Below are positions 1,469 to 34,560 of a stretch of DNA of 64,000 nucleotides, one piece after another. The notes below the pieces were generated by a model. It did not search any database. It was not told the DNA's origin and saw only the letters and a list, made by a program, of their open reading frames with translations. Source of the stretch: Alphaproteobacteria bacterium (lineage in GTDB: Bacteria > Pseudomonadota > Alphaproteobacteria > Micavibrionales > Micavibrionaceae); NCBI GenBank assembly GCA_021775955.1, contig JAJFGU010000011.1, positions 62,001 through 126,000 on the forward strand. The letters run 5' to 3'. A program made the position numbers and the translations under genes. Position 1 is the stretch's first letter. Each line of letters opens with the position of its first letter.

Positions 1469-2884
1469 TTAACGCTCGTTCAACGCGTTGTCCAGCGTTT
1501 TGATAAAAGGCTTGAGCAAATATTGCATCACTGTCTTCTTACCCGTCAGGACATCAACACTGGCGACCATACCGACTGTAATGTCTTTGCGCTCGCCTTT
1601 ATGGATGAGATGGGTTTCATCGGTCTGCAAACGCACACGGTAAAAGATATTGCCCTGCTCATCTTCGAATGTGTCTTGTGAAATATAGGTCAGTTCACCG
1701 TCCAGCCCGCCATAGATGGAAAAATCATAGGCTGTGATTTTAATCACGGCTTTCTGGCCGGGATGGATAAAAGCGCGGTCGGACGGGCTAACCTTGGCCT
1801 CGATGATAAGCTGGTCCCCTTCCGGCACGACTTTAATAATATCTTCGCCCGGGCGGGTGACGCCGCCAATGGTGTTAATTGTAATTTCCTGAATAATGCC
1901 ATCCACCGGTGAGGTAATTTCCTTGCGGTTTTTGCGCTCTTTCAAGGCGGATACTCTTTCCTTTGCTTCGTTCATCTCAATAAGCTTGGCCGCCAGTTCG
2001 GTTTGCGCCTGGGCCTGGGCAGAGCTGACAATGTCGTCAATGCGCGCCTGTGCTTCACTGATCGCAGATTTGGCCCGGGGAAGGCTGGAAAGAACGCCGT
2101 TGAGCTCGGTGCTTCTTTCTTTCAGGCTGCGCTCGAGCTGCAGCAATTCCATTTTCGGCGCCGAGCCCCTTGCGACCAAAGGCTCAACCATTTCCATTTC
2201 CTCACGCTGCAAACTGATGACACCGCGCAAGTCATTGGCCCGCATTTCAAGCTCACGCACTTCCTGTTCACGCTGCGCCAGTTGCTGCAGAAAAATATTC
2301 ATCTGTCCCTGGATTTGTTGCTGGTTAGCACGGAACGCATTCATTTCTTCGGTGACGCTGCCTGGCGCTCCTTCCATGATCTCCTTGGGAAACTCAACCC
2401 GCATTTTGCCCTCGGCCTCGGCCTGCAGACGTGTGATAGAGGCCAGCAAGCCCATATAACGCGCCTGATTGGCACCCAAATCCGAAGAGGCCTCAATATC
2501 GGACAGGCGCATTAAAATCTGTCCGGCTTTAACGCGGTCCCCCTCTTTAACCAGAATTTCTTCGACAATCCCGGCATCCTCCCTTTGCACCGCCTGGACA
2601 TCGCCGGGCGGAATAACCTTGCCGTCGCCACGTGTGACTTCATCCAGTGCAGCAAAATTGGCCCAGACGATAAAAATAGTGAAAAACAGCGCAATAAAGA
2701 CCAGCAGCAAATGCCGGGACAGCGGCAAATCATCATCAGTTTCGAAATAGGACAGAGCATAGGCCGTGGCCATATCGGCTTGCTCCTTCGCCCAACTCTG
2801 ACGGATATCACCCCAGTCAGAGTCCTTGTTAATGCTGTCGGCCTCTTTCTTCACAGGATCAATTTTTCCAATCGGTTCAGCCAT
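1469..2884 (-). CDS. HlyD-family type I secretion membrane-fusion protein
   Basis: Periplasmic adaptor that joins the inner-membrane ABC exporter to the TolC-type channel. The 471-aa protein has a cytoplasmic N-terminus of about 55 residues, one membrane helix (about residues 58-78, [19 protein letters not shown]), a split lipoyl/barrel-sandwich domain whose first half is near residues 95-135 ([20 protein letters not shown]), a long coiled coil to about residue 320, the second lipoyl half with [10 protein letters not shown], and a C-terminal beta-barrel ([19 protein letters not shown]). This is the standard HlyD/LapC layout and length. It starts 2 bp after the ABC gene ends and is clearly co-transcribed with it. 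The likely substrate is the 2,641-aa adhesin encoded upstream in the same direction. The two RTX proteins at 26.7-34.6 kb may share the exporter, but that is inference. Confidence 0.95.
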
Positions 2885-2886
2885 AT

Positions 2887-5232
2887 CTAAACATCCGTAT
2901 TCTCTGCCTGCGTGCCGTATTGGCGCGCCTGCAGCTTGCTGATCACGTCATCTTTCGGCCCAAAGGCCACAAGGCGACCGCGATCAATCAGGATCAACTT
3001 GTCAACCAAAGCCAGCATCGAGCCCTTATGCGTAATTAATATCGTGGTTTTATCCCGGCACAAATCCACCAGTCTTTTCTTCAGGCGGTTTTCCGAGGCC
3101 GGGTCCATAGAGGCCGTGGGCTCATCAAATATCATAATCGGCGGATCATATAAAAGTGTACGGGCAATGGCTACCGCTTGTCGCTGCCCACCAGATAAAG
3201 CCTCACCGCGTTCACCGACCTGCGTGTCCAAACCGGCGGAGGAATCCTTCAAAAACTCCAGAACACCCGACATCTCAGCTGCTTTCAAAACCGCCTTATC
3301 CGGCGCAGTTTCATGGCCCATCGTAATATTATGGCGCACAGAGCCATAGAAAAGCTGCGGGCTTTGCTGGACCGCGCCGACATTGCGGCGTAAATCACCT
3401 GGGTTGATCTGACGTACATCCGTGCCGTCAATCTGCACAGAACCGCTTTCAGGTTCATAAAGATTAATCAAGAGTCTTTCGATGGTTGTCTTGCCGGAGC
3501 CAACAGCGCCGATAATGCCGACCTTCTCACCGGGTTCAATGATAAAGCTTATATTATTAAGAGCGGGTGTTGATTGCTCAGGGTAATGAAATACAACGTC
3601 ACGAAACTCTACCCTGCCTTCAATATGCGGCAGGGTAATGAAATTCTTGCCAGTGGGACGCTCGACCGGTTTTCTCATCATCTCATCGAGCTGATCCAGA
3701 GACTGACGAGACTGGTTAAGCCGTACCAGCAACCCTGCCACCTGCGCCAGCGGCCCCATCGCACGGCCGGACAAAATCACGCAGGCAATCAGCCCGCCCA
3801 TCGACAGATCACCGTTGCTGATGAGGTAAACCCCGACAATCACAATGGCGACGCTGACCATTTGCTGTACATATGTGGCCCAGTGCTGGGCAAAAGCGGA
3901 AATGCGCCGTGATTTAACGGCGGTGCGGGACGCTTTTTCCGCAAGCTCCTCCCAGCTGCGCTGGACATGGCCTTCAGCAGCCTGCACCTTGATGGTCTCT
4001 AAACCGATAATGGTTTCAAACAAAAGCGCATTCTTAAGGGCGCTTTCATGCAGGGATTCCCTGATAATTTTTTCCAGCGGCTTTTGCAAAAGCCAGCCCA
4101 CACCGATAATCAACGGAATCGCGGCCAACGGCACAAAGGCAATAGGTCCGCCAATAATGGCGATAATCACAATATAGAGCAGCACAAAAGGCAAATCGAT
4201 CAGGGCGGTCATGGTGGCCGAGGTAAAGAAATCACGCAGGGTTTCAAATTCCTTCATATTGCTGGCCAGCACCCCGGCACTGGCGGGCCGCGCCGTCATG
4301 GTCATACCCATGAGCTGCTCAAACAGGGAAGCCGATATTTTTACGTCGGCCTTACGTCCGGCATAATCGAGAAAATGCGCCCGCAATGTGCGCAGCAAAA
4401 AATCAAAGACATAGACAAGCATAACCCCGGCTGCGAGTGCCCAAAGTGAATACAGCGCCGCCTCACCATTGGGCACCACCCGGTCATAGACATTCATAAT
4501 GAAGATCGAGCCGGCCAAGCCGAAAATATTGATCATAATGGCCGTAACAACTACTTCGCCGTAAAGAACACGGTGCTTTTTGAAATTCGACCAAAACCAG
4601 TCACGGCCTGTGTCAATTTCAGCCGGTCCGGCACGATCATCCACCCGCGCCACCGGACGTACAAAGAAGGCATAGCCGACATAGAGCTTTTGCAGCTCCT
4701 CCAGCGTCATGGATTGCTTTTCTTCTTTTGTCTCGGGGAACTGCACCAAAAATTTGGTTTCCGGATGAATCTCGACGTCCTTGCCTTTTTCTTTTTTCGG
4801 CGCTTTTTTCTCAGGATACTGAACCTCCCATAAAATACAGGCCTGTCCGTGTTCGAGCGTCAGAATACAGGGCAAATTGGGTGCGATCGCAAGAGATTCC
4901 AGTGAACGCTCCGCCAGCTGCGCGTGCATATCCGCGCGCTCGGCGGCCCGTATAAAGAGAGAAGGTGTAATACCAGCTTGGGGAATAGGTAGCCCGGCGG
5001 TTAAAGACGCTGTGCTTGTGCGGCGACCGTAATGACCGGCCATCAAGCCCAGACAATCAACCAGCCCGTTTTGAATGGCCATACGATCCGCCTGAAGCGG
5101 CCAGCCATCAGGCCGTTCCGCTTTATCGCTTTGCTCTTCTTCTTGAGTGACTTCCGGGGTGTTTTGGTTCTCGTCAGCAAGACCTGCTGTTCCGGCTTTA
5201 GCTTCTTCCGCTTGTTTCTTTTTTTTGCTCAC
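2887..5232 (-). CDS. Type I secretion ABC transporter, LssB/LapB type with C39-like domain
   Basis: Inner-membrane ATPase/permease that exports RTX adhesins. The 781-aa protein has a charged N-terminal tail, a C39-peptidase-like domain (about residues 45-190), a six-helix membrane domain (about 220-490) and a nucleotide-binding domain with Walker A GAVGSGKTT near residue 574, signature LSGGQRQ near 676, Walker B IMIFDEP near 698 and the H-loop ITHKG near 734. By eye, the only Cys of the C39-like motif (VDCLGLMAGHYG) aligns with the second, non-catalytic Cys of true C39 peptidases, and the catalytic position is Gly. The domain is therefore probably a substrate-binding, non-cleaving one, as in HlyB and LapB. 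It lies between the TolC-like gene (37 bp upstream) and the HlyD gene (2 bp downstream). Confidence 0.95.
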   Translation of the reverse strand: MSKKKKQAEEAKAGTAGLADENQNTPEVTQEEEQSDKAERPDGWPLQADRMAIQNGLVDCLGLMAGHYGRRTSTASLTAGLPIPQAGITPSLFIRAAERADMHAQLAERSLESLAIAPNLPCILTLEHGQACILWEVQYPEKKAPKKEKGKDVEIHPETKFLVQFPETKEEKQSMTLEELQKLYVGYAFFVRPVARVDDRAGPAEIDTGRDWFWSNFKKHRVLYGEVVVTAIMINIFGLAGSIFIMNVYDRVVPNGEAALYSLWALAAGVMLVYVFDFLLRTLRAHFLDYAGRKADVKISASLFEQLMGMTMTARPASAGVLASNMKEFETLRDFFTSATMTALIDLPFVLLYIVIIAIIGGPIAFVPLAAIPLIIGVGWLLQKPLEKIIRESLHESALKNALLFETIIGLETIKVQAAEGHVQRSWEELAEKASRTAVKSRRISAFAQHWATYVQQMVSVAIVIVGVYLISNGDLSMGGLIACVILSGRAMGPLAQVAGLLVRLNQSRQSLDQLDEMMRKPVERPTGKNFITLPHIEGRVEFRDVVFHYPEQSTPALNNISFIIEPGEKVGIIGAVGSGKTTIERLLINLYEPESGSVQIDGTDVRQINPGDLRRNVGAVQQSPQLFYGSVRHNITMGHETAPDKAVLKAAEMSGVLEFLKDSSAGLDTQVGERGEALSGGQRQAVAIARTLLYDPPIMIFDEPTASMDPASENRLKKRLVDLCRDKTTILITHKGSMLALVDKLILIDRGRLVAFGPKDDVISKLQARQYGTQAENTDV

Positions 5233-5269: not shown

Positions 5270-6664
5270 TTAGCGTGCCTTCATTTTTTCTTCCGTTGAC
5301 CAGTTGTCATCAGAAGCGACTGTGCTTTCCCTAGGATACTCCAGGCCCAGCGTTGTAAGCAAGGAGCCTTTTAGGCCCAGCAGACGATAAACAGCGAATA
5401 TTTCAAGAAATTCTGCATTCACTGTATTAGAGCGGGATACGAATAATTCATTTTGAGCATCCAAAACATCCAGAAGTGTCCGGCGGTCCAAAGAAAACTG
5501 GTCTTTGTAAGCTTTTACAACTTCGGTGTTGGCATCAGCCTGTGCAGAGAACTGACGCGCACGCTCACCGGCGGACACCATAGAGGCCCAGGTCTGGCGT
5601 ACGTCTGTTTCAACCGCGCGGCCTGCTTCGGCCCTGGCTTCTTTTGTTTGCTGGTGACGGTGAATAAACTCACGTGAGCGTGCCATATCGGCGCCGCCAC
5701 GATAGAGATTCCAGTTCATCACAACCAGAGCAGATGCACTGCGGTCACGGCCTTCAACGCCGTTGACATCGTGACCCTGGCGGGCATTGAGCTGAAGATC
5801 AAATTGCGGGTAAAATGTTGATCTTGTCCCTTGCGCCTCGGCGTAAGCCACTTCGATATCAGATTCAAAAATATCCAGTGTCGGGCTGTAAGCCAGCGCC
5901 TTGAGAACTTCCTCTTCAACATCTGCTGTCAGTGAGTCGTAAGGAATAACCGGTAATGTTAGCTGGCCCGGCGGGTCGCCAACTTCACGGCGGTATTGTG
6001 CTTCCGCATTACGCAAAGCCTGACGCGTGCTAGATTCTGTTGCCCGTGAAGATGCCAGACGAGCTTTCGCCTGCTCCATATCGGCTTGTGTCGAGCGGCC
6101 GGCACTAACGCCGTCCTGAATCTGTTCAAGAATAGAAATATGGTCAGCTACATTTTGACGCGAGATGTCAAGCAGTTGACGTTGGCGCATCACTTCCAGA
6201 TAGCCTTCGACGATAGACAGTCCAACCAGTTCCGCTGTCTCGCGAACGCGGTGGGCCGAAGATTGAACACGTGCCTGCTGGCGACGCACTTCATATGTGC
6301 TTTCCCAGCCATCAAAAAGCATCTGGGTCAGTGTGGCAGCTGCTTCATAGCGCCATAATTCTTCAGTATCATCACCAGGCCCGGAGCGTGTCGCCGGGTC
6401 ATCGCTATGTTCAATTCCTGTATCGGCGCGGATGTCGACAGAAGGAAGGAACAAAGCTTCGCCTTGTTCAAGCTCCTCATCTGTGGCGCGGCGGCTCGAA
6501 GCCACAATGCCATATTCAGGGTTGGTCGATATGCCAACGGCCATCGCATCCTGAAGTGTAATTGTTGTATTTTCCTGAGAATCAACCGGTCCGGCGCTTA
6601 ATATAAGCAGCGCAGATACAGCAGTTGTAAGGCACAAAGTGCGCATTTTTTTAGTCGAAATCAC
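5270..6664 (-). CDS. TolC/LapE-family outer membrane channel of type I secretion
   Basis: Outer-membrane exit duct of the exporter. I choose the GTG start at 6664 because a strong Shine-Dalgarno GGAGAGG lies 8 bases before it and the product then begins with a clear signal peptide (n-region KK, hydrophobic core LTTAVSALLILSA, cleavage near VDSQ). An upstream GTG at 6712 and an ATG at 6646 are alternatives. The mature part holds the duplicated OEP fold: long helices rich in Ala, Gln and Arg, with repeats beginning TITLQDAMAVG and, later, KALAYSPTLDIFESDIEVAYAEA. At about 464 aa it matches the family. It lies downstream of the giant adhesin and upstream of the ABC and HlyD genes, so the four genes form one transport unit. 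Confidence 0.94.
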   Translation of the reverse strand: MISTKKMRTLCLTTAVSALLILSAGPVDSQENTTITLQDAMAVGISTNPEYGIVASSRRATDEELEQGEALFLPSVDIRADTGIEHSDDPATRSGPGDDTEELWRYEAAATLTQMLFDGWESTYEVRRQQARVQSSAHRVRETAELVGLSIVEGYLEVMRQRQLLDISRQNVADHISILEQIQDGVSAGRSTQADMEQAKARLASSRATESSTRQALRNAEAQYRREVGDPPGQLTLPVIPYDSLTADVEEEVLKALAYSPTLDIFESDIEVAYAEAQGTRSTFYPQFDLQLNARQGHDVNGVEGRDRSASALVVMNWNLYRGGADMARSREFIHRHQQTKEARAEAGRAVETDVRQTWASMVSAGERARQFSAQADANTEVVKAYKDQFSLDRRTLLDVLDAQNELFVSRSNTVNAEFLEIFAVYRLLGLKGSLLTTLGLEYPRESTVASDDNWSTEEKMKAR

Positions 6665-6860
6665 TGAGTTTTCCTCTCCAAAATATTTTACCAAGTAAAA
6701 GAAGTTATCCACAACCTAACTCTGACCTACTTATGCCCTTTTTGACAATGAGATGCAAGCATCTTCCATAATTTTTTCAACGGTATATCTAAATAGTTAA
6801 TATTTTAATAAATAAAAACCAGGCGGTCCGTTAAATATTCCCACACATAACGAAACCCGC

Positions 6861-14895: not shown

Positions 14896-14945
14896 TGAAA
14901 GCTCTCCTTACTTTGCAAATATAGGGTCTTATTAGGGACCCATCA

Positions 14946-15025
14946 TTAATCATTTCTTAACGGAATATACAAATTATTAATCATATGTTAAGGTCTTGTC
15001 AACTGTTATGTTAATAGAAAGTTAA
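14946..15025. promoter_or_regulatory. Three perfect CtrA-type boxes (TTAA-N7-TTAA)
   Basis: Perfect TTAA-N7-TTAA sites occur at 14946-14960, 14977-14991 and 15011-15025, with starts 31 and 34 bp apart, or about three helical turns. This is the full binding site of the alphaproteobacterial cell-cycle and motility regulator CtrA. The middle box overlaps the -10 and spacer of the predicted adhesin promoter, and the third lies just upstream of its -35. I searched the other larger intergenic regions by eye and found no other full box. The site pattern is seen directly; that CtrA binds here is inference. Confidence 0.7.
14974..15002 (-). promoter_or_regulatory. Predicted sigma70 promoter of the adhesin gene
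   Basis: On the minus strand there is a perfect -35 TTGACA (14997-15002), a 17-base spacer and a -10-like TAATAA (14974-14979). This would give a 5' leader of about 70 bases before the ATG at 14895. The spacer and -10 overlap the middle CtrA box, a geometry that would suit repression or tight switching. Confidence 0.6.
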
Positions 15026-15107: not shown

Positions 15108-15307
15108 GATTCGTTTTAGCGTTTTTTAGACGAATCACAGTTACGAATCCATCGATTCTACGATTTTTGCCCTTATAGCTGATTCGAATCCGGCTCGAAT
15201 CGCATCAAAAAGAGAGGAGAATCGATTCGATTTGATCAAGAATCGGCAAAAATAGATTCAGATTCGGGTTAAAAAGAATCAATTCCAGCTCGATTTTCTC
15301 CAGATTC
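15108..15307. promoter_or_regulatory. Cluster of 14 GANTC (CcrM-type) methylation sites
   Basis: GAATC or GATTC begins at 15108, 15132, 15145, 15154, 15181, 15186, 15197, 15219, 15224, 15240, 15255, 15261, 15276 and 15303. Five more GANTC sites begin at 15390, 15401, 15483, 15488 and 15502. About one is expected in 200 bp by chance. GANTC is the target of the cell-cycle methyltransferase CcrM in Alphaproteobacteria, so this stretch may report replication passage to the adjacent adhesin promoter. No open reading frame explains the repetition. Confidence 0.75.
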
Positions 15308-15353
15308 TGAAAAGAAAGTGATTTTTTTTGCCTCCTGCTAAATTTTTTTTTGC

Positions 15354-15373
15354 TGTGGACAAGCTGTGGGCAA
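15354..15373. promoter_or_regulatory. Two tandem DnaA-box-like 9-mers
   Basis: TGTGGACAA (15354-15362) and TGTGGGCAA (15365-15373) differ from the DnaA box TGTGGATAA by one and two bases, and start 11 bp apart. They lie beside the GANTC cluster and AT-rich DNA. They could be weak DnaA sites, or part of a regulatory or origin-like region. The mismatches keep this a weak call. Confidence 0.3.
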
Positions 15374-15535
15374 ACTTGTGATTAATTTTGATTCATAATG
15401 GAATCAGAAACATTTGATCATAGTAATAAAGTTTTAACAGGGCCTGTCGAAACGAAAAAAATTTACAAAATTTAAAAAAAAGGACTCGACTCCCGAATTC
15501 TGAATCATTAAATCTAAAACTGTCTTCAGGGCATC

Positions 15536-16060
15536 GCTTCATAACGAAGCAACTCAGTGACCTTCGTGAGGAGAGAGAGTTTGCCCAGACAGGGTGCATT
15601 GGTCTGCATCCGGGTTTTTGGAGCTACGAAGCCCCATTTTTTGTAAGACTTCGGTCTTTATAGAGATTGGGATTTTGCCAGAGGCTTAAAGGGAGCGTAA
15701 AGTATCACGCCTCGCCGTCGCTAAAAGAAGTAGACCTGTGGTCGCGCACAAAAAAACGTTAGATAGCACGGCAAGGGCGGATATGTTTGGAATATGCTCC
15801 TGAAACGCTAGTTCTTTCGCGTAGAGCTAGACGAGTGGTTGATCGCCACGATAAAATTACGGATGAGGGGTTCATTCGTGGGAAAGGGGAACTAAAACGG
15901 CCAGCTACCGCTGTTCCCCAGACCTGATCCGAGTATTCCTGCGGCCTTTAACTTGTTAAAGTACCCAGGAACATGCTTCCCAAAAAGGCCCCGGTGCCTT
16001 GTTCTGGATTTAATCTTCGGATCATATTTGGAACATGGGTGCCGGGGTTCTTTTATGCCT
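15536..16060 (+). ncRNA. Candidate structured non-coding RNA of about 0.5 kb, unknown family
   Basis: No convincing reading frame covers this stretch, but it contains many exact or near-exact helices: a UUCG-capped hairpin (15645-15658); 15714-15723 with 15764-15772; 15808-15815 with 15823-15830; 15860-15868 with 15923-15931 enclosing a 7-bp helix 15886-15892 with 15913-15919; a perfect hairpin 15946-15961; and a terminator-like stem at the end. I looked for the conserved motifs of tmRNA, RNase P RNA, SRP RNA, 6S RNA and group II intron domain V and did not find them. The plus strand is preferred because the last hairpin is followed by T-rich sequence. The 5' end is a guess. Confidence 0.35.
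15984..16053 (+). terminator. Long terminator-like hairpin
   Basis: The stem pairs roughly 15984-16004 with 16031-16053, with a core of CCCCGG against CCGGGG. TTCTTTTATGCCTTTTTT follows on the plus strand. The minus strand also shows a T-run after the stem, so it could act both ways, insulating the adhesin regulatory region from the response-regulator operon. Confidence 0.5.
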
Positions 16061-16719: not shown

Positions 16720-16771
16720 AGTGTAATAGATTAAAAGACACACATGTGTATACTAATTGCTGCTGCGTATC

Positions 16772-17287
16772 ATGGAAAATCAAACACATATCCAAATGAA
16801 CGAACCTTCCGAAGCGAAAGTCATAAAGGCTGATACCTCATTGCAATCCAGGGTCGGAACAGGGCCTCTGGATGAGCGTGTTGTTGAGAAATGCCAGGAT
16901 GTTATGGACAACAATGATGTTGATTTTGCACCGCTGGCGATGGAATTCCTCGATAAGCTGGCTGAAGCCATAAAAAACGCAAGAGCCGGTGATCTGGAGC
17001 TCGATAAGGCGGTGGGAGCGATGACGGAACCCGTCATGCAACTTAAGGCCAACGCCGCTACCTTTCGCTATAATCTGGTTGGAAATCTTGCCAATGTCAT
17101 GCTGAGCTTTCTGGAGGCCGTCAAGGAAATGGACAAAACGGTTCTTGATATCGTTGACGCACACCACAAAACGCTTTCTGCGATTGTTATCAAGAAAATG
17201 AGCGGTGATGGTGGCGCCCACGGCAAACAGCTTGAGGATGAGCTGAAAGGCGCGTGCAAGCGCTATTTCTCCAAGAAAACGGGCTAG
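16772..17287 (+). CDS. Hypothetical helical protein paired with a response regulator
   Basis: I do not recognise this 171-aa protein. I start it at the ATG at 16772 (MENQTHIQMNEPSEAK); an in-frame TTG at 16757 is less likely. The first 35 residues look disordered. The rest is predicted helical and amphipathic (FAPLAMEFLDKLAEAIKNA, VMLSFLEAVKEMDKTVLDIVDAHHKTLSAIV), with no signal peptide or membrane segment and a basic C-terminus. Its position after a stand-alone receiver gene suggests a signalling partner such as a scaffold or phosphotransfer-like protein. H149 and H150 in DAHHKTL are the only obvious paired histidines, and I do not claim they are phosphorylated. Confidence 0.8.
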   Translation: MENQTHIQMNEPSEAKVIKADTSLQSRVGTGPLDERVVEKCQDVMDNNDVDFAPLAMEFLDKLAEAIKNARAGDLELDKAVGAMTEPVMQLKANAATFRYNLVGNLANVMLSFLEAVKEMDKTVLDIVDAHHKTLSAIVIKKMSGDGGAHGKQLEDELKGACKRYFSKKTG

Positions 17288-26699: not shown

Positions 26700-29600
26700 T
26701 TAAACGATGATGCTTTGATCGGTAATGAGGTTGCCTCCGCTGACAAGATCGTTAATGCTGAGGCCGACATTCGTGTCTTTCAGGATTGCCACGGTTTCGA
26801 AGTCATCACCGGCACCGTCAGCATTGATCTGCACTTCAGTATCATCACCATTGGTGACAAGCTGGATAAAGTCATTCAGGTCATCGCCAGCGTCAAAGCC
26901 TTCGAGAACATCAGTGATATTGAGAGCATCGCCCTCACCCAGATCGAAATCGGTAATTTCATCGGTGCTGCCGTCGATTTGCTGGAAGACAAACTGGTCG
27001 GCCCCTGCGCCGCCGGTCATGATATCCAGGCCGGTGCCGCCAATAAGGATGTCATCGCCATTGCCGCCATCAAGAACATCATTCAGCGTAAATTCTTCGG
27101 TGGTATAAGTACCTTCGATGAATTCTATGTGATAATCACTGCCGCGTTCCTCGGCAAAGAACAATATGCTGTCAAAACCGCCAGCGACAATAATATCAAA
27201 TTCAACTTTGCCGTCGGTTTGTGAACCGTGGATCGGATCGATTGCATCGACAGAGCCACTCGCCACAACATCACCATCGCGCAGAGCAACCCAGTCGGCT
27301 GTTTCCACGCCATCAGCAACGCCTTCGAGGAACAAGGAGCGCAGACCAACTGTAGCCTGATCAACCAACAATCCACCAAAGTCGACTAAAATACCTTCAC
27401 CATCGTCTAACTCGCTGTCACCATGGCCTTTTACGCCAATACCGCGATTAATTCCGTGGCGTACATCTGTGGCGCCTCTGCCGAGCTTGCCGTTATCCAA
27501 ATCCTTGAAGAAATCGACATCGACCTGATGGCCATCAAGATTTTGTAGCCACAGCTCACCAAATTTGAAATCTCTCTTGCCGACGTCTTTGCCACCGAGC
27601 AGGAAGGTTTTTTCGGTGATAACCGGAGCGATTACTTCATCGCCGCCGTAGAGAATATCGTTGCCGTTTTCACCAAAGATCAAATCATTACCCGCGCCGC
27701 CATCAAGAATATCGTCGCCGCCCGGATTGGTGTCTCCGCCCATAACCATGGTCTCGGTTTCCTGATTGGCTGTGTCGAACCAGCCTTGCTTGCTGTAATT
27801 CCATTTGGTCAGGAAGCCATCGTCATTATAATCGGTTTTGAGATTGGCCATCGGGTGCAACCACACGCCGATCATGTCTTCAAAGGACACGCCGGTCCAG
27901 TCGGACGAATCGCCGTGCAAAGGCACATGATCAACAACGTCGCTGGCATCCATGGAGAAACTAAAGACATGATGACCGTCTCCATTCACTGTGGCCGAGA
28001 TATCGATAAACGGATTATCATCCGCCAGAGATGTTAAAATCTGATCCGGGGCCTGTTTACCTCTGGCTGAATCACCATCCTTAAAGGAAGAGAAATTGTT
28101 TTTACCGTTATAGCCATAGGCGCTGACAACCGGCTCTCCGCCGCTGTTATCGAAGTAAAACAGTGCCATTTCGCCGGCATGGCCTTTCGGATTGGGGCCA
28201 TCATTGATCGCCAGTGTAAAGCCATCGGTTGTCTTGCGGCCCGGTGCGTCGCTGATCACCATTTCAAAGCTGAATGAATCGGTTGTTTCGTTGTAATTGA
28301 TCGAAACATCCTTGATATCACCGGCGCGCGCGCTGCCCGGAGGGTTTTCGACATTATATTTATGAATAATTTCGGGACCGCCCGGCATACCCGGAATTGT
28401 CTGACCGGTTTCACCAAACAGTGTATCGTCGCCGTCCTGACCGTTGAGCATGTCGTTGCCACTATTGCCGAGCAGGATATCATCGCTCTCAAGACCGTAG
28501 ACCTCATCGTCACCGCCCAGCGCATCAATCACATCTTCTTCCGGCGTGCCGAAGAGAACGTCATCAAATTCCGTCGGGCCGACCGGGTCGATATCAACCG
28601 GACTAATTATAATATTGACGGTGCCGATATCGCTGCCGCCATTGCCATCGAGCAAAGTGTAATCAAAACTGTCAGCGCCATCAAAGCCGGCTGCCGGAGT
28701 ATAGGTGAAGTCACCATCCGCCAGCAATTCAACCGTACCGCCATTGGCGGTCGTAAACATGTCAGGCGTTACGCTAAGAATATCGCCATCAACATCGCTG
28801 TCATTGCCCAATACATTATCGCTTACAGCCATATCTTCATCGGTTGAGATATTGTCATCCTGCGCCACCGGATCATCATTGATTGCATTGACCGTGATGT
28901 TGACCGTGGCAAGATCCGAGCCGCCATTGCCGTCAAGCGCGGTGTAGCTAAAGCTATCCAGGCCATTGAAGTCAGCAGCAGGGGTATAGGTGAAATCGCC
29001 ATTGGCCTGCAGAACGACCAGGCCGCCATTAATTGTGCCGAGTGTTATTGGTGCAACGCTCAAAGTATCACCGTCGGCGTCGCTGTCATTGCTTAAGATA
29101 TTGCCACTAACGGCCATATCTTCATCGGTTGAGATATTGTCATCGAGCGCCACCGGATCGTCATTAATCAAAGCCACCGTAATGTTGACCGTTGCGGTAT
29201 CACTGGCGCCATTGCCATCCAGGACCGTGTAATCGAAGCTGTCTGCACCATTAAATTCAGCAGCCGGGGTGTAAGTGAAATCGCCATTGGCCAGTAACGT
29301 CACCATACCGCCATTGACGGTGGTTAATGTCTGCGGTGTAACAGTAAGCGTATCGCCATCAACATCGTTGTCATTGCCAAGGACGTTACCATTCGCTGTC
29401 GTGTCTTCATCGGTTGTAACAAAATCATCCTGCGCCACCGGATCATCATTAATGCCATCGAGCACGATATTGACCATAGCTGTATCGCTACCGCCATTGC
29501 CGTCAAGCGCGGTGTAGCTAAAGCTATCCAGGCCGTTAAAGTCGGCCACTGGTGTGTAAGTGAAATCACCATTGGCCAAAAGAACAACTGTACCGCCATG

Positions 29601-32510
29601 AAGCGTTGTTATGGTGTCCGGTGTCACGCTTAAGGTATCGCCATCGACATCGCTATCATTGGCCAGAAGATTGCCATTCACCTGCATATCCTCATCGCCG
29701 GTAAAGCTATCATCCTGTGCCACCGGTTCATCGTTTACCGGATTAATCGTGATGTTTACGGTTCCGGTATCAGAGCCACCCTGGCCGTCTATCAATGTGT
29801 AATCGAAGCTATCGGCACCATTAAAGTCGGCTGTTGGCGTGTAGGTGAAATTACCATTGGCAAACAGTGTGACCGTTCCGCCATTGGCCGTTGTTAAGTT
29901 CGCCGATATAACAGCCAGGCTATCACCATCAACATCGCTGTCATTGGTAATCACATTGCCGCTAACGGCAATGTCTTCATCGGTTGTCACCGCATCATTT
30001 TGTGCCACCGGATCATCGTTGACTGGATTGATTGTGATATCGACTGTTCCTGTGTCGCTGCCGCCCTGACCATCGATCACGGTGTAATCAAAGCTGTCTG
30101 CGCCGTTGAAATCGGCTGCCGGTGTGTACGTGAAATCTCCGTTGGAAAGTAATGTTACCGTTCCACCACCCACGGTGCTTAGTGTTGCAGGCGTAACGCT
30201 TAAGGTATTTCCATCAACGTCGCTGTCATTGGTTAAAACATTACCATCCGCAGACATATCTTCATCTGTGGTGATAGCATCATCGACCGCCACCGGATCA
30301 TCATTAATGGCATTAACCGTGATATTAACGGTGCCTGTATCACTGCCGCCATTGCCATCGATCACGTTGTAATCAAAACTATCAGCGCCATTGAAATCAG
30401 CGGCCGGCGTATAGGTGAAATCACCATTGGTCAGTAAATTTACGATACCGCCATTGGCTGTAAAGAATGTGGCCGGTGTTACGCTTAAAGAGGGGCTTTC
30501 AACATCGCTATCATTCGTCAGCACATTGCCGCCTGTTGCGACGTCCTCGTCTGTCGTAACGTTGTCATCCTGTGCGACCGGATCGTCATTAATCGGATTG
30601 ACAGTGATATTGACGGTTCCGGTATCAAAGCCACCATTGCCATCGACAAGTGTATAATCAAAGCTATCGGCGCCGTTAAAATCGCCCGCCGGAGTGTAGG
30701 TGAAATCACCATTCGCCAGTAATGTGACCGTACCGCCATTTGCCGTGCTCAGAGTCGTTGGTGTAACGCCAAGCGTATCACCATCGATATCGCTGTCGTT
30801 GCCCAGAACATTTCCATTTGTCGCGGTGTCTTCGTTGGTTGTTAGAGAATCATCCCCGGCGACTGGATCATCATTGATTGAATTGACCGTAATATTGACT
30901 GCGCCGAGGTCAATACCACCATTGCCGTCGACCAATTGGTAGACAAAGCTATCCACGCCGTTAAAGTCTGCCGCAGGCGTATAAGTAAAGTCGCCATTGG
31001 CAAGAAGCGTGACCGTGCCGCCACCCGTTGTCGTCAGAGAGGCCGGTGTTACGCTTAAGACATCACCATCAACGTCGCTGTCATTGCCCAGGACATTGCC
31101 ATTCGTGGCTGTATCTTCATTTGTTGTAACGCTATCATCACCAGCAACCGGGTCATCATTCACCGGAGCTATCGTAACCGTTACCATGCCGGTGTCACTG
31201 CCGCCATTGCCGTCGATGATCGTATAGTTAAAAATATCAATGCCGTTATAGTCAGGTGCCGGTGTATAGGTGAAGTCACCGTTTGCCAGCAATTCAACTA
31301 TGCCACCATTGGCCGTGGTGAAGCTCGCCGGAACAACGCTTAGAATATCGCCGTCAATATCGCTGTCATTTGTCACGAGATTTCCGCTACTCGCCGTGTC
31401 CTCTACTGTGTTCGAGGCATCAGCTTGCGCATGCGGATCGTCATTAACCGGATTGATTGTGATATTGACGGTTCCGGTATCGGAGCCGCCCTGGCCGTCC
31501 ACCACGATGTAATCAAAGCTGTCTGCTCCGTTGAAATCCGTAGCCGGTGTGTAAGTAAAGTCGCCACCGGCCAAAAGAACAACGATGCCGCCATTGGCCG
31601 TTGTAAATGAAGCAGGTGTCACGCTTAAAATGTCACCATCAGCATCCGTGTCATTACCCAAAACATTACCGTTTGCTTCGACATCTTCGTCAGTCGTTGC
31701 AACATCGTCCCCGGCAACCGGATCGGTATTTCCTTGCGGCGGTCCCTGTATGGTCCTCAGATCAAAAGTAGTGCCGTTTGAAAACTCAAGTGTGTCAATT
31801 CCGCTATCGGCTGCATCAAACTGGCCTTGAATGATAATCGTGCCAACGCCGCCAACCGTAATTTCAAGATTATTGCCGTTGGTTACAAAAGCAAGATTAG
31901 AAAACACTATGCCCGGAGGAAGTTCGATAACATTTGTGTCACTGCTGGAAGCTTCAATAACCGTGTCGTTACCGGTTCCGGCAACATACGTATCATCGCC
32001 TGTGCCACCAATCAGAATATCGTCTTCGGTACCACCGTCGAGCGTATCATTACCATCACCGCCGTTAATAATGTCATTGCCTGCTTCGCCGCCGAGAAAA
32101 TCATCGCCGGGACCACCGTCAAGAATATCTTCACCGGCGCCACCCAGAACAGTATCATTGCCAACATTGGCCCATAGAATATCATTACCAGCACCGCCCA
32201 GAATAACGATATCGCCCAGGGAAAAATTCGTGCTGGAAAGATCAATAATGTCGCCGCCATTACCAGCCAGGAACACCTCGATATTTGAAACCACCTGATT
32301 GCCCATATCATCTTCGATGAAAAGAGCGTCCCCTGCATTGGTCATGAAAAGTGTGTCAGTACCGCCTAAACCATCATAGATGAAGGAATTTACGTTCTTT
32401 GTTTCATTTACAATTTCAATGATTTCGCCGCTATAGGCATTGACCAATGTCGTCGTTAGCTGACCCAGTGTGCCGAAAAAGAATATGGTATCGTCATTAT
32501 TAGTAGCCAT
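26700..32510 (-). CDS. Large type I secreted RTX protein with eleven 95-aa tandem repeats
   Basis: A 1,936-aa acidic extracellular protein. In order: an N-terminal domain (MATNNDDTIFFFGTLGQ), RTX nonapeptides (about residues 90-185), eleven repeats of 95 aa (about 258-1310) each with T-x-E-D...GNVLGNDSDVDGD and FTYTPAADFNGADSF, which are cadherin/Ig-like tandem-95 repeats, RTX again (about 1312-1370), an unrecognised domain with DGPNPKGHAGEMALFYFD (about 1375-1580), RTX, another unrecognised domain (about 1635-1800, GGKDVGKRDFKFGELWLQ), and final RTX plus a VCA0849-type secretion signal. Ends and internal domain match the next gene upstream (32944-34560). There is no PAAG motif, so it may be released rather than retained. 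Exporter presumed shared with 1.5-6.7 kb. Confidence 0.93.
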   Translation of the reverse strand: MATNNDDTIFFFGTLGQLTTTLVNAYSGEIIEIVNETKNVNSFIYDGLGGTDTLFMTNAGDALFIEDDMGNQVVSNIEVFLAGNGGDIIDLSSTNFSLGDIVILGGAGNDILWANVGNDTVLGGAGEDILDGGPGDDFLGGEAGNDIINGGDGNDTLDGGTEDDILIGGTGDDTYVAGTGNDTVIEASSSDTNVIELPPGIVFSNLAFVTNGNNLEITVGGVGTIIIQGQFDAADSGIDTLEFSNGTTFDLRTIQGPPQGNTDPVAGDDVATTDEDVEANGNVLGNDTDADGDILSVTPASFTTANGGIVVLLAGGDFTYTPATDFNGADSFDYIVVDGQGGSDTGTVNITINPVNDDPHAQADASNTVEDTASSGNLVTNDSDIDGDILSVVPASFTTANGGIVELLANGDFTYTPAPDYNGIDIFNYTIIDGNGGSDTGMVTVTIAPVNDDPVAGDDSVTTNEDTATNGNVLGNDSDVDGDVLSVTPASLTTTGGGTVTLLANGDFTYTPAADFNGVDSFVYQLVDGNGGIDLGAVNITVNSINDDPVAGDDSLTTNEDTATNGNVLGNDSDIDGDTLGVTPTTLSTANGGTVTLLANGDFTYTPAGDFNGADSFDYTLVDGNGGFDTGTVNITVNPINDDPVAQDDNVTTDEDVATGGNVLTNDSDVESPSLSVTPATFFTANGGIVNLLTNGDFTYTPAADFNGADSFDYNVIDGNGGSDTGTVNITVNAINDDPVAVDDAITTDEDMSADGNVLTNDSDVDGNTLSVTPATLSTVGGGTVTLLSNGDFTYTPAADFNGADSFDYTVIDGQGGSDTGTVDITINPVNDDPVAQNDAVTTDEDIAVSGNVITNDSDVDGDSLAVISANLTTANGGTVTLFANGNFTYTPTADFNGADSFDYTLIDGQGGSDTGTVNITINPVNDEPVAQDDSFTGDEDMQVNGNLLANDSDVDGDTLSVTPDTITTLHGGTVVLLANGDFTYTPVADFNGLDSFSYTALDGNGGSDTAMVNIVLDGINDDPVAQDDFVTTDEDTTANGNVLGNDNDVDGDTLTVTPQTLTTVNGGMVTLLANGDFTYTPAAEFNGADSFDYTVLDGNGASDTATVNITVALINDDPVALDDNISTDEDMAVSGNILSNDSDADGDTLSVAPITLGTINGGLVVLQANGDFTYTPAADFNGLDSFSYTALDGNGGSDLATVNITVNAINDDPVAQDDNISTDEDMAVSDNVLGNDSDVDGDILSVTPDMFTTANGGTVELLADGDFTYTPAAGFDGADSFDYTLLDGNGGSDIGTVNIIISPVDIDPVGPTEFDDVLFGTPEEDVIDALGGDDEVYGLESDDILLGNSGNDMLNGQDGDDTLFGETGQTIPGMPGGPEIIHKYNVENPPGSARAGDIKDVSINYNETTDSFSFEMVISDAPGRKTTDGFTLAINDGPNPKGHAGEMALFYFDNSGGEPVVSAYGYNGKNNFSSFKDGDSARGKQAPDQILTSLADDNPFIDISATVNGDGHHVFSFSMDASDVVDHVPLHGDSSDWTGVSFEDMIGVWLHPMANLKTDYNDDGFLTKWNYSKQGWFDTANQETETMVMGGDTNPGGDDILDGGAGNDLIFGENGNDILYGGDEVIAPVITEKTFLLGGKDVGKRDFKFGELWLQNLDGHQVDVDFFKDLDNGKLGRGATDVRHGINRGIGVKGHGDSELDDGEGILVDFGGLLVDQATVGLRSLFLEGVADGVETADWVALRDGDVVASGSVDAIDPIHGSQTDGKVEFDIIVAGGFDSILFFAEERGSDYHIEFIEGTYTTEEFTLNDVLDGGNGDDILIGGTGLDIMTGGAGADQFVFQQIDGSTDEITDFDLGEGDALNITDVLEGFDAGDDLNDFIQLVTNGDDTEVQINADGAGDDFETVAILKDTNVGLSINDLVSGGNLITDQSIIV
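28580..31715 (-). repeat. Eleven tandem 285-bp units inside the RTX gene
   Basis: The tandem-95 repeats keep an exact 285-bp period at DNA level. Homologous sites recur on the plus strand at 28705, 28990, 29275, 29845, 30415, 30700 and 31270. The similarity should allow copy-number change by recombination or slippage without loss of frame. Confidence 0.9.
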
Positions 32511-32800: not shown

Positions 32801-32944
32801 GGGCGTGCCATCAATTGAAGGATTTTGCGGCGAAAAGCGTGCGTTTCGAGAACCGGAAGCGTAAATGTATTAAACATACATGCGGACCGGAAGCGTAGAA
32901 ACGCGCGCTTTGTAGCCCAAAAGACAATAATTGATGGTACGTCC
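32801..32944. repeat. 144-bp nested palindrome between the RTX paralogues
   Basis: The outer arms 32801-32816 and 32929-32944 pair over 16 bp with two G-T wobbles. The inner arms 32834-32847 and 32898-32911 pair over 14 bp with one wobble. Two copies of ACCGGAAGCGTA (32852 and 32886) and a small central stem lie within. The right arm touches the stop codon of the smaller RTX gene. The rest of the gap (32511-32800) is AT-rich with no gene seen. It could be a terminator, an RNA stabiliser or an inserted palindromic element. Confidence 0.8.
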
Positions 32945-34560
32945 TAAAGAGGAACGGTCTGATCAATCACCAGATTGCCGTCACTAATAAGGTCGTTTAG
33001 ACCCGTGGCAAGGGCAATATCTGCCATCACCGCAATCGTCGTATAGGCCGCGCCGCTACCGCCAGTATCCACCTGAACTTCGGTATCGGTGCCGCTAATA
33101 ACAAATTGCAGGAAGTCATTCAGATCATCCACGCCCTCATTAAAGCCAGAGAGGATATCGGTTAAATTGAGAATATCATTGCCTGCACCGGATACAAAAT
33201 CGGCAATAGTATCGACATTGCCATCCAGTTGTTTAATCACGAATTGATCGGATCCTATGCCACCATTTAATATATCGGCTCCTGTGCCACCGATTAAAAT
33301 ATCATCGCCACCTTCACCAAAAAGCTGATCATCGCCCGCGCCACCAATTAATTTGTCGTTTCCGCCTGTCGTTGGATCATCCCCGCCCACAAAAACAGTT
33401 TGTGTAGCCGAGTTTATTGTGTCGTACCAGCCATGGCCCATCGAACTCCACCCAGTTAAAAATCCACTCCCGTCATATGCGCTCGTAAGATCCGCCATCG
33501 GGTGCAGCCATATTCCAACCAGTCCTTCAAAGGTCATACCTGTCCAGTCAGCAGGATCACCATAAAGCGGCACATGATTGATGATCGTGCTTGCATCCAT
33601 TGTAAATTGGAAGACATGATCGCCATTGGTATTAATAAGAGCTGATATATCCGTAAAGGGATGACCGGCGGCCAGTGATGTTAGTATCTGATCCGGCGCT
33701 TGTATGCCGGCAGCGGGATCACCATCTTTAAAGCTGGAAAAATTATTAAGCCCGTTATAACCGTAAACGCTGACAATCGGCGCTACGCCGCTATTATCAA
33801 AGTAAAACAGAGCCATTTCCCCGGCAACGCCTTTGGGATTCGGACCGTTGTTAAGAGCCAGCGTAAAGCCTTGCGATGTCTTACCCGGCGGATCGGTCAC
33901 GATCAGCTTAAAATGAAATTCATTGGTTGTGACATTATACCTCGTAGCAACATGTTGAATATCGCCACCCGCAGGATGGCTAACAGGATTATTGATCCCA
34001 AACTGATGGATCACTGCGGGGCCACCGGGTAAGCCAGGAATTGTAAAACCGGATTCTCCGTAAAGAATATCATCTTCAGACCCGCCATCGACGGTATCAT
34101 CGCCGGCGCCGCCTTTGATAATATCGACATCGGACTCACCGCCGACAAAATCGTTGCCCGGCCCGCCGTCAATAATGTCATTACCGGCGCCGCCCAAAAT
34201 AGTATCATTGCCGACATTGGACCATAAAATATCATCACCCGCGCCGCCCAGAATAACGATATCGCCCAGGGAGAAATTCGTGCTGGAAAGGTTGATAATG
34301 TCGCCACCATCTCCGGCCAGAAAAAGCTCAATGCTTGTGACAACCTGATTGCCCAGATTATCCTCAATAAAAAGCGCGTCCCCAAGGCTGCTCATAAAAA
34401 GTGTATCGTTGCCACCAAGACCGTCATAGATGAGGTTATTAACGTTCTTCTCTTCGTCTACAATTTCGATGATTTCGCCGCTATAGGCATTGACCAATGT
34501 CGTCGTCAGCTGACCCAGTGTGCCGAAAAAAAATATTGTGTCGTCATTATTAGTAGCCAT
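32944..34560 (-). CDS. Short RTX paralogue of the large secreted protein
   Basis: A 538-aa version of the 1,936-aa neighbour without the tandem-95 repeats. The first 170 residues are almost identical to it (same MATNNDDTIFFFGTLGQ start and RTX block). Then come the shared unrecognised domain (about 175-390, NGPNPKGVAGEMALFYFD...YGYNGLNNFSSFKDGD), a short RTX block (GGNDKLIGGAGDDQLFGEGG) and the C-terminal type I signal (FVIKQLDGNVDTIADFVSG). DNA identity at the 5' ends is also very high, indicating a recent duplication or gene conversion. It is read towards the larger gene, with the palindrome at 32801-32944 between them. Probably a secreted calcium-binding surface protein. Confidence 0.92.
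   Translation of the reverse strand: MATNNDDTIFFFGTLGQLTTTLVNAYSGEIIEIVDEEKNVNNLIYDGLGGNDTLFMSSLGDALFIEDNLGNQVVTSIELFLAGDGGDIINLSSTNFSLGDIVILGGAGDDILWSNVGNDTILGGAGNDIIDGGPGNDFVGGESDVDIIKGGAGDDTVDGGSEDDILYGESGFTIPGLPGGPAVIHQFGINNPVSHPAGGDIQHVATRYNVTTNEFHFKLIVTDPPGKTSQGFTLALNNGPNPKGVAGEMALFYFDNSGVAPIVSVYGYNGLNNFSSFKDGDPAAGIQAPDQILTSLAAGHPFTDISALINTNGDHVFQFTMDASTIINHVPLYGDPADWTGMTFEGLVGIWLHPMADLTSAYDGSGFLTGWSSMGHGWYDTINSATQTVFVGGDDPTTGGNDKLIGGAGDDQLFGEGGDDILIGGTGADILNGGIGSDQFVIKQLDGNVDTIADFVSGAGNDILNLTDILSGFNEGVDDLNDFLQFVISGTDTEVQVDTGGSGAAYTTIAVMADIALATGLNDLISDGNLVIDQTVPL

Follow-up and report, generated by a model that had tools for sequence, protein, structure and literature searches.

Closest described systems

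The effect of CtrA on a promoter goes along with the position of its motif in Caulobacter, where a motif over the -10 element is associated with repression and one near the -35 element with activation (PMC4287350). The sequence TTAACAT is the CtrA half motif in this genus, and a repressor class has been described for half motifs (PMC4287350). CtrA-repressed promoters of Caulobacter crescentus include ctrA P1 and mipZ P2, in which the motif lies across the -10 element of a sigma-70-type promoter (PMC4287350). The promoter described here shares this arrangement, but differs from ctrA P1 and mipZ P2 in that its TTAA-N7-TTAA boxes are complete and occupy up to three registers, and in its target, a giant adhesin; its repression is what we infer.

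The closest described relative of the target is GMV0107 of M. aeruginosavorus ARL-13, a 2892-aa VWA/RTX protein, termed hemolysin-related protein in the original paper, with TolC, HlyB and HlyD genes directly downstream (PMC3189940). Its expression index was 16.9 in attached cells and 0.3 in the attack phase, and flagellar genes behaved in the opposite way (PMC3189940). The genome analysed here is Micavibrionaceae-like, and the Micavibrio-like group includes predators that attach to their prey. In the literature searched we found neither a regulatory explanation for the coupling of attachment and cell cycle in epibiotic predators nor a paper joining Micavibrio and CtrA, and the titles and abstracts retrieved contained no earlier report of CtrA control over an RTX or LapA adhesin.

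The adhesin and its secretion genes

The analysed window, a stretch of 64,000 nucleotides, codes for a giant protein that combines T1SS-143/DUF5801 and RTX repeats with a VWA domain and has a C-terminus of the type I secretion kind; genes of the TolC, ABC and HlyD types come next (Table 1). Two EPAAG motifs are located in the N-terminal region of the giant protein, and a PAAG-like motif, [TPAS]AAG, is present in the first 330 aa of all 41 orthologs compared. The genome encodes a LapG-family peptidase (PF06035, 81.1 bits); the LapD profile PF16448 gave no match in this genome and none in the control genomes either. The first-pass annotation had called the protein LapA-like, and this description is borne out by the repeats, the VWA domain, the secretion C-terminus, the adjacent T1SS, the PAAG-like sites and the LapG homolog. 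Judged from these features, the adhesin is of the LapA type, with a predicted di-alanine cleavage site. Export of a repeat adhesin by a T1SS, the N-terminal di-alanine site and the LapG-family peptidase are shared with the LapA/LapG system, whereas the proposed transcriptional control by CtrA sets the present adhesin apart from it.

GMV0107 is a likely ortholog by its architecture and gene order, as it too is a giant VWA/RTX protein whose gene is directly followed by those for TolC, HlyB and HlyD. Two more RTX-repeat proteins are encoded in the window (26700-32510 and 32944-34560, both on the minus strand), the larger of which has 1936 aa and eleven Ig/cadherin-like repeats.

Table 1. Positions of the features of the adhesin locus within the window.
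Feature	Position	Strand	Remark
T1SS adaptor, HlyD-type	1469..2884	-	
T1SS permease/ATPase (LssB type)	2887..5232	-	
T1SS outer membrane component, TolC-type	5270..6712	-	
LapA-type RTX adhesin, 2641 aa	6970..14895	-	
CtrA box C	14946..14960	-	register +42, just past predicted start
-10 TAATAA (predicted)	14974..14979	-	17 bp from -35
CtrA box B	14977..14991	-	register +11, over spacer and -10
-35 TTGACA (predicted)	14997..15002	-	
TTAACATAA element	15006..15014	-	kept in nearly all 41 promoters; fits CtrA half motif TTAACAT
CtrA box A	15011..15025	-	register -23 from first T of -35
Structured RNA candidate	15346-15899	+	covariation in 15 sequences

CtrA boxes at the adhesin promoter

All three TTAA-N7-TTAA sites of the promoter are perfect, and they are the only ones in the window. 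They precede the adhesin ATG by 51-130 bp, with the divergent gene about 1.2 kb away, and their spacing, announced as about three helical turns, measures 31 and 34 bp. The overlap of the middle box with the spacer and the -10 element of a TTGACA-17-TAATAA promoter is likewise present as annotated.

That such a cluster is unlikely by chance holds true, while the background on which the first-pass annotation had based this statement needs correction. It had assumed DNA of 75% AT and one site per 2.5 kb; the window has about 50% GC, a content of about 73% AT applies to the promoter only, and the genome contains one site per 45 kb. When the 200 bp preceding the adhesin gene (27% GC) were shuffled by dinucleotides, the probability was 0.07 for at least one site, 0.003 for at least two and 0.0001 for at least three; the same treatment of the whole intergenic region gave 0.0008 for at least three. 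Shuffles of the whole window contained 1.1 sites on average and reached at least three in 8 of 100 cases, so the signal is the clustering and not the total of the window. The genome (2.32 Mb on 25 contigs, 99.96% complete) holds 51 sites, including the three at the adhesin promoter, as compared to 76 for the reversed pattern. A genome-wide excess of the motif is thus absent and was dropped as support; the genome-wide figures given here are search counts supplemented by sampled stretches. Most of the 20 genes examined next to other boxes have no Pfam family match. Perfect boxes (L188 985; L169 641, 698) also precede two other genes, one of them FtsK-like and the other with an N-terminal methylation motif.

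A CtrA equivalog is encoded in the genome (NF045991, 416.6 bits at a cut-off of 350). It is one of four PF00486 regions, which leaves at least three further candidates, and binding of CtrA to the boxes is a prediction, so another OmpR-family regulator might use these sites. We regard this as improbable: several Alphaproteobacteria have TTAA-N7-TTAA as their CtrA motif, and in the NF045991 scan, which took in three of the four regions, the two other regulators remained far under the CtrA cut-off. We hold direct binding of CtrA to the adhesin promoter in this genome to be likely.

Conservation and registers in relatives

The N-terminal region of the adhesin has matches in 48 of 58 relatives; those that bear names are Micavibrio and further MAGs of Alphaproteobacteria. 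Of 32 genomes of the family, a sample with nearly one genome per genus, 23 have one or more perfect boxes (31 in total) within 300 bp upstream of the orthologous adhesin start. If the genus of the window is left aside, 19 of 28 genomes (23 boxes) remain, and in other families of the order four of nine genomes have a box. The starts in the 41 genomes were chosen as those preceded by a ribosome site; with a first, cruder set of starts, 19 boxes had been counted within 200 bp, whereas shuffles averaged 0.72 and never exceeded 5. The spacing is specific, since with any other spacer length between 0 and 20 the 32 family genomes yielded 0-6 boxes, versus 31 for N7. In G025 the response regulator has its closest relative far away from the adhesin gene, and it is the latter that keeps the boxes.

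When the 41 promoters were aligned on TTGAC, with the first T of the -35 as register zero, the arrangement TTAACATAA-N3/5-TTGACA proved to be near-universal, and by inspection a -10-like hexamer follows 17 bp beyond the -35 in most of them. Three registers hold 31 of the 37 perfect boxes, namely -23 (6 boxes, just upstream of the -35), +10 to +12 (13 boxes, over the spacer and -10) and +42 to +45 (12 boxes, just after the predicted start), and six boxes are found elsewhere. The score used to choose the anchor counts an upstream CATA and, weakly, a TTA 3-6 bases past TTGACA, and therefore slightly favours register B where several TTGAC candidates compete; most promoters offer only one. Gene starts, transcription start and promoter are predictions here, and the sequences are mostly from MAGs. 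As a genome-wide regulon element, CATAA-N-TTGAC was discarded (26 matches, 15 in the reversed control). Conservation at orthologous promoters had been proposed as a check of the boxes, and they are indeed found in register across many genera. A low promoter GC content of 27% and the missing genome-wide excess would suit boxes that arose by chance in AT-rich DNA, but the N7-specific spacing and the fixed registers in many genera led us to reject this explanation, which we consider next to impossible.

A perfect box is absent from nine of the 32 family genomes. One of these is the complete genome G024 (2,458,610 bp, about 55% GC), judging from size, GC content and gene order probably that of M. 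aeruginosavorus strain EPB, where TTAACATAA and TTTGACT are kept in the adhesin promoter. In this respect GMV0107 would differ from the adhesin of the window, its published expression is not creditable to boxes B and C, and repression by these boxes is for the same reason inferred.

Proposed control by CtrA

CtrA would bind the TTAA-N7-TTAA boxes, about three helical turns apart, and box B over the -10 together with box C just past the start would occlude RNA polymerase; boxes B and C suggest such an occlusion because motifs at the -10 go along with repression in Caulobacter (PMC4287350). In the motile, non-replicating cell, active CtrA would keep the adhesin off, and a drop of CtrA activity in the attached, growing cell would switch it on. 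The downstream T1SS genes may be switched along with the adhesin, provided that they are co-transcribed. The element TTAACATAA beside the -35, or a full box A, could serve as an activating half-site or raise occupancy. By analogy, the box geometry suggests that CtrA represses the adhesin in most genera, and a half-site might activate it. Taken together, it seems moderately probable that the promoter is a direct CtrA target with net repression through boxes B and C.

Box A and TTAACATAA also fit activation and in this regard count against net repression. CtrA might chiefly be an activator of the adhesin, by way of box A, of the half-site or of box B with a downstream start, and boxes B and C might only tune expression. 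TTAACAT near the -35 is an activating half motif in Caulobacter (PMC4287350), no element of the promoter is conserved as widely as TTAACATAA, and an alternative -10 is present in this genome as part of a second possible promoter, TTAACA-16-TATATT, which would set box B at its -35. By inspection, a promoter of this type was not seen at the other promoters with a B box. Further, 25 of the 31 boxes in register belong to registers B and C, the near-consensus -35 has no obvious need for an activator, and GMV0107, the likely ortholog, is switched off in motile cells (PMC3189940). We therefore hold predominant activation to be unlikely and prefer net repression.

The first-pass annotation had proposed that CtrA control of the adhesin would link attachment to the cell cycle, without giving a direction of control. 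This proposal gains support from the CtrA equivalog, the conserved boxes in register and the LapA-type target, and the presence of the boxes in most related genera suggests a coupling of surface attachment to the cell cycle, probably through repression. As most genera of the family have a conserved CtrA operator at the gene of a giant adhesin that is accompanied by a T1SS, the question of this coupling becomes testable and, if the proposal is true, the CtrA regulon extends to LapA-type adhesins.

The remaining intergenic region

The 1.3-kb intergenic region contains 16 GANTC sites in 15108-15405, all of them GATTC or GAATC, 15 of which fall within 300 bp. Outside the locus, sampled stretches of G000, G024, G002 and G003 never exceeded five per 300 bp. 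Other genera show the enrichment at the corresponding position, and over 15 loci the 320 bp next to the conserved structured element add up to 116 GANTC sites, while the counts for five further palindromic pentamers were 6-28 or fewer. Two GANTC sites abut at 15483-15492 (GACTCGACTC), and GTCGAGTC is invariant in 15 sequences. The genome encodes GcrA and a RAMA-domain enzyme of the CcrM type, which together with the dense GANTC sites are features of a CcrM/GcrA-type region. In addition, two DnaA-like boxes, TTGTCCACAG and TTGCCCACAG on the minus strand (15353-15373), are conserved in related loci.

The DnaA-like pair, the GANTC array and the AT-rich DNA share the intergenic region with the CtrA boxes, which could accordingly be part of a replication origin, as in Caulobacter, and not of a promoter. 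However, the GC skew keeps its sign across the locus in G000, G002, G003 and G006, in the complete G024 the switch lies near the contig start, about 100 kb off, and the box registers track the adhesin promoter. A chromosomal, Cori-like origin at this locus was rejected on the missing switch, and the boxes have only a very slight chance of belonging to one.

The structured RNA candidate has a consensus of 42 pairs with 95% of the cells paired and 22 pairs changed on both sides. Slid controls reached 35-46%, a contrast that is partly built in, as the pairs were derived from the same alignment. The energy is -28.5 versus a mean of -0.26 for shuffled columns, and 138 G-U as compared to 9 A-C cells point to the plus strand. 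No family in Rfam matches the region. A model of the 3' domain was found in 20 of 58 relatives and, across the class, in three of 289 genomes, all three in the family. Among the genomes searched, the candidate occurs only in Micavibrionales and near the adhesin, and we consider this putative RNA apparently new. Tentatively, and with considerable doubt, the intergenic region might act as a single cell-cycle switch of Micavibrionales, in which the multi-box CtrA operator silences the adhesin, a region controlled by DnaA and CcrM (DnaA-like pair, GANTC array and GTCGAGTC) drives a structured RNA on the opposite strand that is undescribed and restricted to the order, and prey attachment follows replication.

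A 176-aa protein beside the response regulator (16757-17287, plus strand) has no Pfam or NCBIfam match. In the leader of the adhesin, box C and the ribosome site flank a short hairpin (14924-14941, minus strand), and a similar one is present in some congeners.
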